Origin: Candidatus Gallimonas intestinigallinarum
GTDB taxonomy: Bacteria > Bacillota_A > Clostridia > Christensenellales > Borkfalkiaceae
Direction: 5' to 3'
Assembly (NCBI GenBank): GCA_019116405.1
Contig: DXBS01000131.1
Location: 1-7,331 of the forward strand
Length of the DNA stretch: 7,331 nt
Below are positions 2,438 through 6,456 of the stretch, in pieces. Under the pieces are notes generated by a model. It saw nothing but the letters and a program-made list of their open reading frames with translations. It ran no database searches and had not been told where the DNA came from. Position 1 is the first letter of the stretch. Each line of letters opens with the position of its first letter. Made by a program: the position numbers and the translations under genes.

Positions 2438-2471
2438 TCCAACAAAAGGGGAGGCCCGTACGTTGTATAGG
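2438..2471 (+). promoter_or_regulatory. Candidate ECF-sigma promoter of the lipoprotein gene
   Basis: No acceptable sigma-A promoter was found between the terminator and the lipoprotein start. An ECF-like arrangement is present instead: TCCAAC ending at 2443, a 17-base gap, then CGTTGTATAGG (2461-2471). This resembles the AAC plus CGT core of many Firmicutes ECF promoters. The match is by eye and is only suggestive. Confidence 0.35.
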
Positions 2472-2513: not shown

Positions 2514-3545
2514 ATGAAAAAGTTTATCGCAATTTGTTCGGCAGTATTGGCAGGTACGGCGCTTCTCGCGTTCGCGGGATGCGACACAGGCTCGGAGCAG
2601 GGCAACCTGATCTCGGGCGGACTGGGCGGCGAGGGCACGCAGGTTGAGGCGGGCGCACGTGATGCCTACGGCGTCGGCGCGGTCACAACGGCGGAGCTTC
2701 TCTCCGCGCTCGCCCCCGCAGCGGAGGCGGCGCCGCTCTCGCAGGTCACGGAAGGTGGCACGGCGGCACAGCCCACGCAGGAGGAACTGGAGAGCTTCAA
2801 CGAGTACTTCGTCACGCTCAACACCTTCCTCGGCGGCGAAGGGTTTACGACGACGGTCGTAGAAAATCCCGATGCGGACTATGCCTTCGACTACAAGCTC
2901 ACCGTCGAAGGGACGCAGCTGGACGGCACCGTCATCTCGCAGGTCATGTACTATTCGGAGGAGAGCGTCGCCGTCCGTCCCGACGATGACGACAACGAGC
3001 GCGTGGAGGCGTACCGCCTGACGGGCGTTGTCATCCTCGACGGCGTCTCCTACGAAATGGGCGGCTACCGCAGCGTGGAGACGGAGGAGGAGCGCGATGA
3101 GACGGAAGTCAGCGAGGAGCTGTGGATCCGCGCGTCGCACCCCACCGAAACGGGCACCTATGTGCAGATGAATCTGGAGACGGGCACGGAAGAGGAGCAC
3201 GGCGAGACGGAGACCGAGCGCGAATATGTGTACAGCATCTACCGCGGCGGCAGCCTTGTCGAGCGCGCGAGCGTCGATTTTGAGACGGAGTACGAGAACG
3301 GCAGGACGGAGACGGAGTACGAGCTGGGCATCCTTAGAAACGGTGAGCGCACCACCTATGAGGTCGAGCGTGCGGAGCGCGCGAACGGCACCGTCACCAT
3401 CGGCGTCAACTATCGCCTCGCAAGCGGCGAGCGCGGCAGTTTTGTGATCACGCAGACCGCGGACGGGCTCAGCTATGCCTTCGACGACGGCGGTCGCATC
3501 GATTTCGACGACGACCGTGACGATTGGGATGATTGGGACGACTGA
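2514..3545 (+). CDS. Acidic secreted lipoprotein with Asp/Trp-rich C terminus
   Basis: A 343-residue predicted lipoprotein of unknown function. The start at ATG 2514 is chosen because GGAGG (2501-2505) sits eight bases upstream and the protein then begins with a normal lipoprotein signal: MKK, a hydrophobic stretch, and the lipobox FAGC with the modified Cys at residue 23. The earlier in-frame ATG at 2499 overlaps the ribosome site and would add five polar residues. After the Cys comes a Gly/Ala/Thr-rich linker to about residue 75. The remainder is rich in Glu, Thr and Tyr with alternating patterns that suggest a beta-rich fold. The last 14 residues are DFDDDRDDWDDWDD. I do not recognise a named family. 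It precedes the tethered sigma factor gene, which also ends in a poly-Asp tail, so an extracytoplasmic partner or target of that sigma system is a reasonable inference. A candidate ECF promoter lies upstream. Confidence 0.82.
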   Translation: MKKFIAICSAVLAGTALLAFAGCDTGSEQGNLISGGLGGEGTQVEAGARDAYGVGAVTTAELLSALAPAAEAAPLSQVTEGGTAAQPTQEELESFNEYFVTLNTFLGGEGFTTTVVENPDADYAFDYKLTVEGTQLDGTVISQVMYYSEESVAVRPDDDDNERVEAYRLTGVVILDGVSYEMGGYRSVETEEERDETEVSEELWIRASHPTETGTYVQMNLETGTEEEHGETETEREYVYSIYRGGSLVERASVDFETEYENGRTETEYELGILRNGERTTYEVERAERANGTVTIGVNYRLASGERGSFVITQTADGLSYAFDDGGRIDFDDDRDDWDDWDD

Positions 3546-3575: not shown

Positions 3576-3599
3576 GGCGCCCTCTTGACAGAGGGCGCC
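3576..3599. promoter_or_regulatory. Perfect inverted repeat enclosing the -35 box of the sigma gene
   Basis: GGCGCCCTC (3576-3584) and GAGGGCGCC (3591-3599) are perfect complements, nine pairs, with TTGACA as the six-base centre. It could be an operator, or a hairpin at the end of the lipoprotein mRNA. No T tract follows on either strand, so it is not a classical terminator. Confidence 0.65.
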
Positions 3600-3614
3600 A
3601 AAACCTGATATAAT
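3585..3614 (+). promoter_or_regulatory. Sigma-A promoter of the tethered sigma factor gene
   Basis: TTGACA (3585-3590), an 18-base spacer, then TATAAT (3609-3614) with an upstream TG extension (TGATATAAT). Both hexamers match consensus perfectly. The predicted start near 3621 leaves a leader of about 14 bases that includes the ribosome site GGGAGG (3623-3628). The sigma gene therefore appears to be driven by the housekeeping sigma rather than by itself. Confidence 0.88.
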
Positions 3615-3634: not shown

Positions 3635-5218
3635 ATGTCGCTCGATCAAGCCATGACAAGACTGGCGGCGGGAGAGAAGGCCGCCTTCGATGAGATCTAC
3701 CGCGCAACGCGCAGGACGGTCTACTATATCGCGCTCTCCTATGTGCGCGAACGCATGCTCGCCGAGGACGTCATGCAGACGACCTACTTAAAGGTGCTGG
3801 GAAATGCGTCGCGCTACAAAAAGGGGACGAATGCGAACGCATGGATCGCGCGCATCGCCCGCAACGAGGCGATCGACCTTCTGCGCCGCCGCTCGCGCGA
3901 GCTTTCGGTGGACGAGCGGGAGAATCCGCTCCCCTTCGGCACGCAGGACGTGGACGACTATGGGCTTCTTATCGACCTTGCGCGGCGCATCTTAAAACAG
4001 GAGGAATTCTCCGTTCTGATGCTCGCGGCGACGGAGGGCTACAAGCGGCGGGAGATCGCGCAGATGCTCTCCATGCCGCTGCCCACAGTTTCATGGCACT
4101 ATACGCGTGCGGTCAAAAAGTTGCAGCACGCGCTTCAGGAGGAAAAGCGCGAACAGAGAACAGGAGGCGGGATCGTGCAAAGAGGGGAACTGGAACGCGA
4201 ACTCCGCCGCGAGGCGGAAGAACATACGCCCGACGTGTACGAGCGGGTGGTCACGGCGCAGCCCGACGGCAAGGCGGGCGAGGTCGTCGCGGCAGCGCGT
4301 CCGCGCAGGTCGCTGATCATCGCTGCATGCGCCCTTGCTGCCGTTTTTCTCGTGCTCGTCTGCCTGCTGCCCGTCCTGCTTGCGGGCGGCGGCGCGGCGG
4401 GGCTCTCGGGCAACTTGTACATCAGCATCAACCCTGCGGTGGAGTTTATCGTGGAGGAGGACCGCGTCATCAGCGTGCGGGCGCTCAATCGGGACGCGGC
4501 GCTTCTCCTTAGCGGCGAGGACTTCACGGGGCTCTCGCCCGAGGACGCGGGCGAAAAATTTGTACAGCTCTCTGAAAACAAGCATCTCATCACGGCAGAG
4601 GGCGTGGGCGTGACGGCGACGGGCGAGGACGCTGCGGCGCTCGAACAGCGCGTGCGCGACCGGCTTGCGGGCAGCACGCAGAATTATGCGGTGCACGATA
4701 TGTCCCAGAGCGATCTGGATGCGCTCATCGCCGCCTATGACGAGCAGGCGATGGGGGACTTCGAGGACTATCTGGAGCGCGAACTTTCCCACCTGCGCAC
4801 CGACTTTGCCGAACGCGTGCACACGCTCATGGAGAGCTATTCTGCCGATCTTGACGCGGTGTTTGCGGGCAGCATGACGCAGGCGGCGTTCAATGAGAAA
4901 TACCTCTACCTCGGCGAGGACTGCATCTTTGATGACGGCGATGAAACGCAGCGCGAACTTTCGGAGAACTTTGCAGAGCTCAAGCGCGAGATCGAGCGCT
5001 ACGGGGACGACTACATCTTCGAAGAATTATTTGATGAGTTCATCGAGGCGGTCGAGGAGTTGTATGAATCGGACGTCGAACAGGGCGGCGACGACGGCAA
5101 CGATGACAGCGACGACGATAATGATGATGACGACGATGACGACGATGGCGATGACGACGATGACGACGATGACGACGATGATGATGACGACGATCGCCGT
5201 CGGGACAGAGACAGGTGA
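3635..5218 (+). CDS. Membrane-tethered ECF sigma factor fused to an RsgI-like anti-sigma/sensor domain with poly-Asp tail
   Basis: A 527-residue fusion. Residues 17-86 are sigma region 2 (AFDEIYRATRRTVYYIALSY, then AEDVMQTTYLKV and ARNEAIDLLRRR). Residues 110-168 are region 4 with the helix-turn-helix YKRREIAQMLSMPLPTVSWH. Residues 181-225 form a charged cytoplasmic linker that looks like the N terminus of a separate anti-sigma protein (HTPDVYERV). One hydrophobic helix spans about 226-250. Residues 259-345 match the RsgI middle domain (YISINPAVEF, then DRVISVRALNRD), including the Asn266-Pro267 pair at which RsgI proteins autocleave. Residues 350-480 are charged and mostly helical; 486-520 hold 30 Asp in 35 positions, and the end is RRRDRDR. 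The likely role is promoter selection after proteolytic release from the membrane. Start: ATG with GGGAGG six bases upstream. ECF sigma and RsgI-like anti-sigma are usually separate genes, so the fusion is odd; an internal start at 4175 may also yield the second half alone. Confidence 0.88.
   Translation: MSLDQAMTRLAAGEKAAFDEIYRATRRTVYYIALSYVRERMLAEDVMQTTYLKVLGNASRYKKGTNANAWIARIARNEAIDLLRRRSRELSVDERENPLPFGTQDVDDYGLLIDLARRILKQEEFSVLMLAATEGYKRREIAQMLSMPLPTVSWHYTRAVKKLQHALQEEKREQRTGGGIVQRGELERELRREAEEHTPDVYERVVTAQPDGKAGEVVAAARPRRSLIIAACALAAVFLVLVCLLPVLLAGGGAAGLSGNLYISINPAVEFIVEEDRVISVRALNRDAALLLSGEDFTGLSPEDAGEKFVQLSENKHLITAEGVGVTATGEDAAALEQRVRDRLAGSTQNYAVHDMSQSDLDALIAAYDEQAMGDFEDYLERELSHLRTDFAERVHTLMESYSADLDAVFAGSMTQAAFNEKYLYLGEDCIFDDGDETQRELSENFAELKREIERYGDDYIFEELFDEFIEAVEELYESDVEQGGDDGNDDSDDDNDDDDDDDDGDDDDDDDDDDDDDDDRRRDRDR
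4162..4177 (+). promoter_or_regulatory. Internal ribosome binding site and GTG at the sigma/anti-sigma junction
   Basis: AGGAGG (4162-4167) is followed after seven bases by GTG (4175-4177), in frame with the fusion and encoding Val181. Translation from here would give a 347-residue protein starting MQRGELERELRREAEEH, which looks like a normal anti-sigma N terminus. The placement between the sigma domain and the membrane part suggests an ancestral two-gene arrangement that lost its stop codon, or dual expression. Confidence 0.55.
5091..5194 (+). repeat. GAT/GAC repeat encoding poly-aspartate
   Basis: A trinucleotide-type repeat of GAC and GAT codons interrupted by a few Gly, Asn and Ser codons. 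A nine-base unit, GATGACGAC, recurs: two tandem copies at 5126-5143, three at 5150-5176 and one at 5183-5191. It encodes runs of 8 and 15 consecutive Asp. Such repeats can change length by slippage. Confidence 0.9.
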
Positions 5219-5219
5219 C

Positions 5220-5247
5220 AAAAAACGGGCGCAGCGCCCGTTTTTTT
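5220..5247. terminator. Intrinsic terminator after the sigma gene, possibly bidirectional
   Basis: ACGGGCG (5225-5231) pairs with CGCCCGT (5235-5241) around the loop CAG. It is flanked by A5220-5225 on one side and T5241-5247 on the other, so it can terminate either strand. It starts two bases after the stop codon. Confidence 0.92.
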
Positions 5248-5258
5248 GTGTGCGGAAG

Positions 5259-5877: not shown

Positions 5878-6456
5878 ATGGACGTTTATTTCTATCTCAA
5901 CGCGATCGGGTTTGGCATAGGATTGGCGATGGACGCCTTTTCCGTTTCCATGGCAAACGGGCTGAACGAGCCGCGCATGAAGACGGGCAAGGCGGCTGGC
6001 ATTGCGGGCGTGTTCGCCTTTTTCCAGATCATCATGCCCCTTTTAGGGTGGTTCTGCGTCCACACGATCGCCTCAGCTTTCGAGGCGTTCCGCCCCGCCA
6101 TCCCCTGGATCGCGCTCATCCTGCTCGCCTTCATCGGCGGGAAGATGCTCTTTGAGGGCATCCGCAACAAGGGGGAGGCGGAAAAGACCGCCGTCGGCAT
6201 CGGCGCGCTCTTCCTGCAGGGCATCGCGACCTCCATCGACGCCCTGTCTGTCGGCTTTACCATCGCCGATTTCACCTTTTTGATGGCGCTCACGGAGTGT
6301 CTCATCATCGGCTGCGTGACCTTCCTCCTGTGCTTTGCGGGCGTGTTCATCGGCAAAAAGTTCGGCACCAGGCTCGCGGGCAAGGCGAGTATTTTGGGCG
6401 GCGTCATCCTCATTCTTATCGGGCTGGAGATTTTTCTCACGGGCATTCTCGGCTGA
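5878..6456 (+). CDS. mntP: Manganese efflux pump MntP
   Basis: A 192-residue integral membrane protein, close to the usual MntP (formerly YebN) length, that exports Mn2+ from the cytoplasm. It has six predicted membrane helices arranged as two related halves, each opened by the family motif: GLAMDAFSVS (residues 15-24, Asp19) and GIATSIDALSVG (115-126, Asp121). IGGKMLFEGIR (86-96) and KASILGGVILILIG near the C terminus are also typical. ATG 5878 is chosen because GGAGGG (5868-5873) precedes it and because the earlier in-frame ATG at 5845 lies inside the terminator hairpin. Expression is expected to rise with Mn2+ through the leader riboswitch. A very strong hairpin follows at 6497. Nothing is unusual in the protein itself, and the combination with a yybP-ykoY leader makes the assignment firm. 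Confidence 0.95.
   Translation: MDVYFYLNAIGFGIGLAMDAFSVSMANGLNEPRMKTGKAAGIAGVFAFFQIIMPLLGWFCVHTIASAFEAFRPAIPWIALILLAFIGGKMLFEGIRNKGEAEKTAVGIGALFLQGIATSIDALSVGFTIADFTFLMALTECLIIGCVTFLLCFAGVFIGKKFGTRLAGKASILGGVILILIGLEIFLTGILG

Follow-up and report, generated by a model that had tools for sequence, protein, structure and literature searches.

The genes of a sigma factor and its anti-sigma factor are usually neighbouring pairs that often overlap, an arrangement that helps to fix the ratio of the two products. In C. thermocellum, an ECF sigma factor with an RsgI-like partner is represented by Sig24C/Rsi24C, a pair that was not found in the open-access papers searched. Proteins in which the two partners are joined have also been described. 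IutY of P. putida is an ECF sigma factor fused to a membrane anti-sigma factor and is freed by Prc and RseP (PMC8999054 and PMC5411451, both as partly available), and ECF48, ECF52, ECF53 and some ECF36 have been described as fusions, mostly from their domain structure (available part of PMC8999054).

In RsgI6 of C. thermocellum, self-cleavage at an Asn-Pro bond is followed by a signal that parts the pieces, by RseP cleavage of the membrane helix and by removal of the cytoplasmic fragment through ClpXP (PMC12203970, in the sections available). According to the same sections, this pathway has been extended in vitro to other RsgIs, in two cases through chimeras only, and ClpXP in vitro fully degrades most RsgI fragments; RsgI8 is without self-cleavage, and a block of self-cleavage in B. 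subtilis RsgI leaves signalling not fully stopped. Here, we analyse a stretch of DNA of 7,331 nucleotides (the window) in which, as elsewhere in a group of uncultured Clostridia of the gut, an ECF sigma factor and an RsgI-type anti-sigma factor share one reading frame.

Results

The fused gene (3635..5218; all features of the window given here are on the plus strand) encodes 527 aa, and an ECF sigma factor, a cytoplasmic anti-sigma segment, a single membrane helix and an extracytoplasmic regulatory region of the RsgI type are found in this one polypeptide. Sigma region 2 (aa 21-88, 3695..3898; PF04542, 5.3e-16) and sigma region 4 (aa 120-163, 3992..4123; PF08281, 5.1e-6, 26.5 bits against a cut-off of 25.7) both score above their cut-offs, as expected of an ECF sigma factor (sigma-70 group IV, with regions 2 and 4 only), and TIGR02937, the sigma70-ECF model, scores 67.4 bits against 42.9. 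The anti-sigma segment consists of two predicted helices (aa 183-208, 4181..4258; AlphaFold helices 183-197 and 202-208), in which ELERELRREAEEHTPDVY is conserved. The membrane helix follows at about aa 227-250 (4313..4384; AlphaFold helix 225-248, with hydropathy and a motif scan), and the motif scan found the XAA motifs IAA and LAA in it. The periplasmic RsgI_M domain (aa 262-350, 4418..4684) contains a SINP motif (aa 264-267, 4424..4435) with a predicted self-cleavage site at Asn266-Pro267. RsgI_N, which we take to be PF12791, the N-terminal SigI-binding domain, was not among the 10 Pfam matches of the window protein up to an E-value of 1. The earlier note had read these domains from a single frame and had proposed profile searches of the sigma regions and the RsgI middle domain; this reading is confirmed. 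With a pTM of 0.30, the AlphaFold model says nothing on the placement of the anti-sigma segment against the sigma factor.

The outer part of the protein comprises a helical domain (aa 358-478, 4706..5068; AlphaFold helices), which is a candidate sensor, and an acidic C-terminal tail (5069..5215), where Asp/Glu account for 30 of the last 40 residues and for 17 to 30 across 27 aligned proteins. Asp-rich tails end both the fused protein and the product of the upstream lipoprotein gene (tail at 3483-3545), which suggests a shared ligand, e.g. a cation or a cationic peptide. A hairpin with a T-run at 5216..5250 (fold energy -17.3 kcal/mol) is the likely intrinsic terminator of the fused gene; it is absent from the list of the consensus scan.

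At the junction of the sigma factor and the anti-sigma segment lies an internal Shine-Dalgarno sequence, AGGAGG (4162..4167), of which GGAGG (4163-4167) is read in frame as Gly-Gly. It is followed by an in-frame GTG (codon 181, 4175..4177), the start codon of a nested anti-sigma reading frame of 347 aa (4175..5218) that is the predicted second product. This nested GGAGG and start, the main feature of the locus, had been missed in the earlier note. The statement there that no free anti-sigma gene is adjacent holds for a separate gene, but the nested Shine-Dalgarno sequence and start (4163-4177) most likely provide a free anti-sigma factor. We consider it likely, from the features of the sequence set out below, that the gene makes two products, a tethered sigma factor and a free anti-sigma factor.

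The neighbours in the 7.3-kb window are rpoC, a lipoprotein gene, an ArsR-type regulator, mntP and one further frame. In the first 2255 positions rpoC is found in two overlapping frames (1-408 and 405-2255). Since this gene is essential, an error of assembly or sequencing at the base level around position 400 is suggested, and with it that the window sequence is not error-free. A sub-threshold match to the manganese riboswitch RF00080 (5698-5815; 18.9 bits against a gathering score of 45, E 0.025) adjoins mntP (5878-6456) on its upstream side, and at the gathering score Rfam gave no match in the window.

Of the 29 hits of a protein search, 26 with identities of 55-97% went into an alignment which, with the query included, comprises 27 proteins, among them P0027 with an unrelated N-terminus and P0026 without membrane helix and SINP. 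Asn-Pro is present in 25/27 and missing in P0021 and P0026; the membrane helix is missing in P0026 alone (1/27), and XAA motifs were found in 20 of the 25 correctly scanned membrane helices and were absent in 5. Among the named contigs of the relatives are those of Candidatus Gallimonas caecicola and merdae, which come from chicken gut, and the genus Gallimonas is placed in Clostridia. Two variants of the fusion deserve mention. In L044 and P0021, a natural variant, an insertion replaces SINP, so that Asn-Pro is lost while fusion and nested start are kept, and in L047 and P0026 the membrane helix and SINP are deleted in frame and the nested start is kept. The latter may represent an untethered form or arise from an artefact of assembly.

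Among the genomes of the same family, 194/398 gave a match at 1e-20. The full-length fusion is present in sixteen of these, G156 carries it with an in-frame deletion of membrane helix and SINP, and G157 has a frame break 3' of the junction; P0016, with by eye the same N-terminal leader, is intact. Together with the window these 18 genomes constitute 19 fused rows (window, L001-L005 and L079-L091), and the arrangement, fused or split, is known for these and for 24 split loci. In the wider order, 7/297 drawn genomes matched at 1e-45, and a row that spans the fusion came from G005 itself and no other. A tree of the sigma part places all 19 fused rows in one clade (97/96, the values of that tree itself) and the 24 split rows outside it, and the fusion is thereby conserved across homologues, a point that the earlier note had left to be checked. 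That all fused loci belong to one clade counts against our preferred explanation. The sigma factors of the sister lineages are homologous (50-62% identity), and 22/24 split loci match an RsgI-type anti-sigma query, the exceptions being L032 (= L006) and L055 (= L094). Contrary to the reading in the earlier note, an ECF sigma factor in the place of SigI is consequently not special to the fusion, since sister genomes pair a homologous ECF sigma factor with a separate RsgI-type anti-sigma factor.

The distance from HYxRA to GG is 19-22 aa in the 18 junctions measured, i.e. the length of the linker varies by up to 3 aa, and no stop codon is found in the linker of any fused row (0/19). Since the linker changes by whole codons only and stays open throughout the clade, the fusion looks selected. 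One may argue that the fusion is incidental: separate sigma and anti-sigma factors would do the work, the anti-sigma factor arising from the nested start and free sigma being constitutively cut from the full-length chain, and the missing stop would simply be tolerated. Outside the clade the operons are split, a nested start would provide inhibitor by itself, and P0026/L047 retains frame and nested start without a membrane helix. Neutral loss of the frame would however be expected under such tolerance, and although linker length varies, the stop is missing from 19/19 rows (the break in G157 lies further downstream); we regard an incidental fusion as improbable.

The conservation of the nested start was analysed at 18 junctions, those of the window, the 16 full-length genomes and G156, with G157 left out. 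In all 18, GGAGG is followed exactly 7 nt on by an in-frame NTG, which is GTG in 15, ATG in 2 and TTG in 1. The linker residues encoded here vary (GGGIV, GGGVV, GGAGV, GGSVV, GGSAM, GGGRM, GGGGL and others). Elsewhere in the 18 genes GGA is used for 75/613 Gly codons and GGAGG opens 4/59 other Gly-Gly pairs. Codon 177 is GGA in 18/18, whereas the codon varies in the 13 other of the 14 Gly columns that are conserved in at least 17/18 proteins. In a tree of 17 genes (G156 left out), third-base changes range from 0 to 9 across the 43 fourfold columns that are fully conserved, and codon 177 is alone among them with zero; the adjoining codon 178 has at least 6. Shine-Dalgarno sequence and start codon of the nested gene are thus both conserved, in a manner that points to selection at the DNA level. 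The control was GGAGG followed 4-9 nt on by an in-frame NTG at other places in the genes: 8/18 have such sites, with up to five extra ones in L044, but never at a spacing of 7 nt and without conservation over the set. The mRNA is on average less folded at the nested start (-6.3 kcal/mol) than the gene mean (-10.0 kcal/mol) and the sigma starts (-7.1 kcal/mol).

A relic would be expected to decay at synonymous sites, and the unchanged GGA at codon 177, against changes in 42/43 fourfold columns, is at odds with the notion that the full-length tethered sigma is the sole product and that GGAGG...GTG is a functionless remnant of the ancestral two-gene operon. The start residue, moreover, varies between V, M and L while its codon stays NTG. 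A single product would agree with a full-length frame that is unbroken and conserved, the split relatives show from where such a remnant would stem, and chance GGAGG...NTG sites do exist in these genes; taken together, we find this reading quite unlikely. That ribosomes slip at GGAGG, terminate early and so release free sigma is very improbable: internal Shine-Dalgarno-like sequences can stimulate frameshifting, but the first stop in another frame lies 1 to 270 codons off without conservation, so frameshifting does not fit, and the invariant NTG at 7 nt would be left unexplained.

A selected fusion together with a nested start conserved at the DNA level makes it most likely that the gene yields both the tethered sigma and the free anti-sigma factor. 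Several observations count against these two products: in L028 and L038 (2/18) the junction is no less folded than the gene, GTG is a weaker start than ATG, and GGAGG with a nearby in-frame NTG is also met elsewhere in 8/18 genes, if never at 7 nt.

The nested NTG lies 13 residues before a conserved EA/ES in 18/18 fused loci. In the split loci the separate anti-sigma factor starts 13 residues before EA/ES in 19/23, a register that is not blind, as these starts were our own choice among codons close to the sigma stop, aided by Shine-Dalgarno matches. Of the remaining four, two were unmatched by the pattern, one starts at 12 and one at 17, the last with a nearer start that was passed over. GGAGG is found 4-7 nt 5' of the anti-sigma start in 12/23 split loci, and the split layout is often GGAGGGAAGGCATGA, in which the anti-sigma ATG overlaps the sigma TGA. 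From the two layouts we infer that a one-base change in spacing would join the frames without loss of the start.

The fused gene is preceded by a SigA-type promoter, TTGACA-18-TATAAT (3585..3614), with 12/12 consensus positions and a TG extension. A TTGAC...TA element lies between lipoprotein and sigma in 19/19 fused loci, 17 identified by regular expression and 2 by eye; in L082 and L087 the SigA-type element was found by eye and has a weaker -10. An inverted repeat, GGCGCCCTC/GAGGGCGCC (3576-3599), flanks the TTGACA of the -35 and is a possible operator. By eye it is alike in L001, L079 and L003, and it is not present in all loci.

An ECF-type promoter is found 5' of the lipoprotein gene (2439..2467), with CCAAC (-35) and CGTTGTA (-10) 17 nt apart. 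ECF promoters typically have an AAC triad in the -35 (available part of PMC6056542). By regular expression, CCAAC-N17-[CT]GTTNNA is present 5' of the lipoprotein gene in 19/19 fused loci and L006, and by pattern it was found in 15/20 of the split loci L059-L078 and also in L093. Taken by itself, the window contains this pattern, with 2 mismatches allowed, no less often than expected by chance, and the promoter call accordingly rests on conservation.

A genome-wide search of 19 genomes with this pattern recovered the lipoprotein site in 18/18 fused genomes; five hits lay elsewhere, and the reversed-pattern control gave three. A second pattern recovered the site in 17/18 fused genomes and G006; it gave two further hits, against none for the control. 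A larger regulon was considered and set aside at this level of extra hits (5 vs 3 and 2 vs 0 for the two patterns), and one of the extras (G002, L113) appears, by reading of the sequence, to lie inside a coding region. The few extra hits suggest that, apart from its own neighbour, the sigma factor probably has few targets; the genomes scanned are metagenome assemblies that may be incomplete, and further targets are possible. In the distant relative L010, CCAAC-N17-TGTT is found directly before the sigma gene (3945) and again downstream (5780), a different layout that may reflect autoregulation of the sigma gene itself.

The lipoprotein gene (2514..3545), the predicted target of the sigma factor, encodes a lipobox recognised by eye (AFAGC), beta strands and an acidic C-terminus. 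A homologue lies upstream, by tblastn, in 19/19 fused loci, in 20/20 of the split loci L059-L078 and in L006 and L093; none was detected upstream in L094. The window protein has no Pfam family above cut-off and no PDB fold match at E<=0.001, with a mean AlphaFold pLDDT of 71.3. It has 249 protein homologues, of which 120 were listed, and a match to DUF4988 at 7e-4 is seen in 1/58 aligned members. In L087 (G160; 6208 to 5482, minus strand) the lipoprotein gene seems, by eye, to be interrupted: the match breaks off some 700 bases short of the sigma gene, and a tail-like stretch turns up again closer to that gene.

The separate anti-sigma factor of L006 (4513-5694) does not match the RsgI-type query, and its ectodomain shares homology with the upstream lipoprotein (37.7% identity). 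It reads as a sensor swap, with a lipoprotein-like domain in place of RsgI_M, and this homology ties the lipoprotein to the signalling. The anti-sigma factor of L094 may resemble that of L006 (27% over 51-197).

Discussion

In the mechanism that we propose, the fused gene would be transcribed from its SigA-type promoter, and ribosomes starting at 3635 would produce the full-length protein, in which the ECF sigma factor is covalently tied to a membrane-anchored RsgI-type anti-sigma factor. Ribosomes starting at the nested GTG (4175) would produce the anti-sigma factor alone, so that inhibitor would always exceed sigma. The ectodomain would cut itself at Asn266-Pro267 and its pieces would hold together until a signal pulls them apart, whereupon a site-2 protease would cut the membrane helix. 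The freed sigma-containing fragment, perhaps trimmed by ClpXP, would then switch on the ECF-type promoter of the lipoprotein gene.

Self-cleavage and the RseP and ClpXP steps, by which sigma would be released, are predicted from the homology with RsgI, that is from Asn-Pro and the XAA motifs, and we hold the chances of the whole release pathway to be about even. Full degradation of the released fragment by ClpXP would destroy the attached sigma factor, which argues against such a pathway. The proteins that lack Asn-Pro (2/27), the membrane helix (1/27) or XAA motifs (5/25) also count against it, as does the fact that other RsgIs do not always need self-cleavage. Either the released sigma-containing fragment would be active, as in IutY, or ClpXP would halt at the Gly-rich junction, the latter being speculation. 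Taken furthest, every sigma chain would be made attached to its inhibitor, and inhibitor alone would come from the same frame as well; one mRNA would set the ratio, free sigma would need proteolysis, and the junction would carry two codes, GGAGG for the ribosome and a Gly-rich ClpXP stop that spares sigma. This comprehensive scheme is tentative, and we consider it rather doubtful as a whole.

The step from a split pair to a fusion is visible once in the tree, with fusion and old start both retained, and the system offers a clear test of why an excess of inhibitor is needed despite attachment. For RsgI signalling it poses the concrete question of how a sigma factor that forms part of the ClpXP substrate outlasts this step. 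With a regulon that seems to be tiny and to consist of the gene next to it, the circuit lends itself to reconstruction in a laboratory strain.

The earlier note had taken the tethered sigma for an undescribed design. This is too strong, since IutY and the ECF48, ECF52, ECF53 and some ECF36 fusions were already known. Like the protein described here, IutY (an ECF243 hybrid) is a single chain with an ECF sigma factor, one membrane helix and an anti-sigma region that is extracytoplasmic, and it is released through regulated intramembrane proteolysis (PMC5411451 and PMC8999054, as partly available). IutY functions in cell-surface signalling with the IutA receptor, whereas the present locus has an RsgI-type ectodomain, a lipoprotein neighbour and a conserved nested start. 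No outer-membrane receptor gene is present among the neighbours in the window, and a word search of the available part of the IutY paper (PMC5411451) found no mention of a nested or internal start. ECF48, ECF52, ECF53 and some ECF36 likewise join an ECF sigma factor to membrane anti-sigma parts, but these are of the zinc-finger type in Actinobacteria, or are N-terminal membrane parts with DUF2275 (PMC8999054, in the part available).

With the SigI/RsgI systems of B. subtilis and C. thermocellum the locus shares RsgI_M with Asn-Pro, a single membrane helix and XAA motifs (available part of PMC12203970), and thus possibly the same RseP and ClpXP steps. It differs in that the sigma factor is not SigI but of the ECF type, with regions 2 and 4, that RsgI_N was not found among the Pfam matches, and that sigma and anti-sigma occupy one frame. 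The two-gene sister operons (L058/L093 and L059-L078) are alike in their homologous sigma and anti-sigma factors, the upstream lipoprotein and, mostly, the ECF-type promoter, but their sigma gene has its own stop, often in an ATGA overlap with the anti-sigma start. Among the matches listed in a search of the open-access literature, judged by titles and the beginnings of abstracts, no report of an RsgI-type ECF fusion or of a nested start in a sigma/anti-sigma fusion was recognised. Fused sigma/anti-sigma proteins are already known, and what is new here is the RsgI type, the nested start and the history from split to fused.
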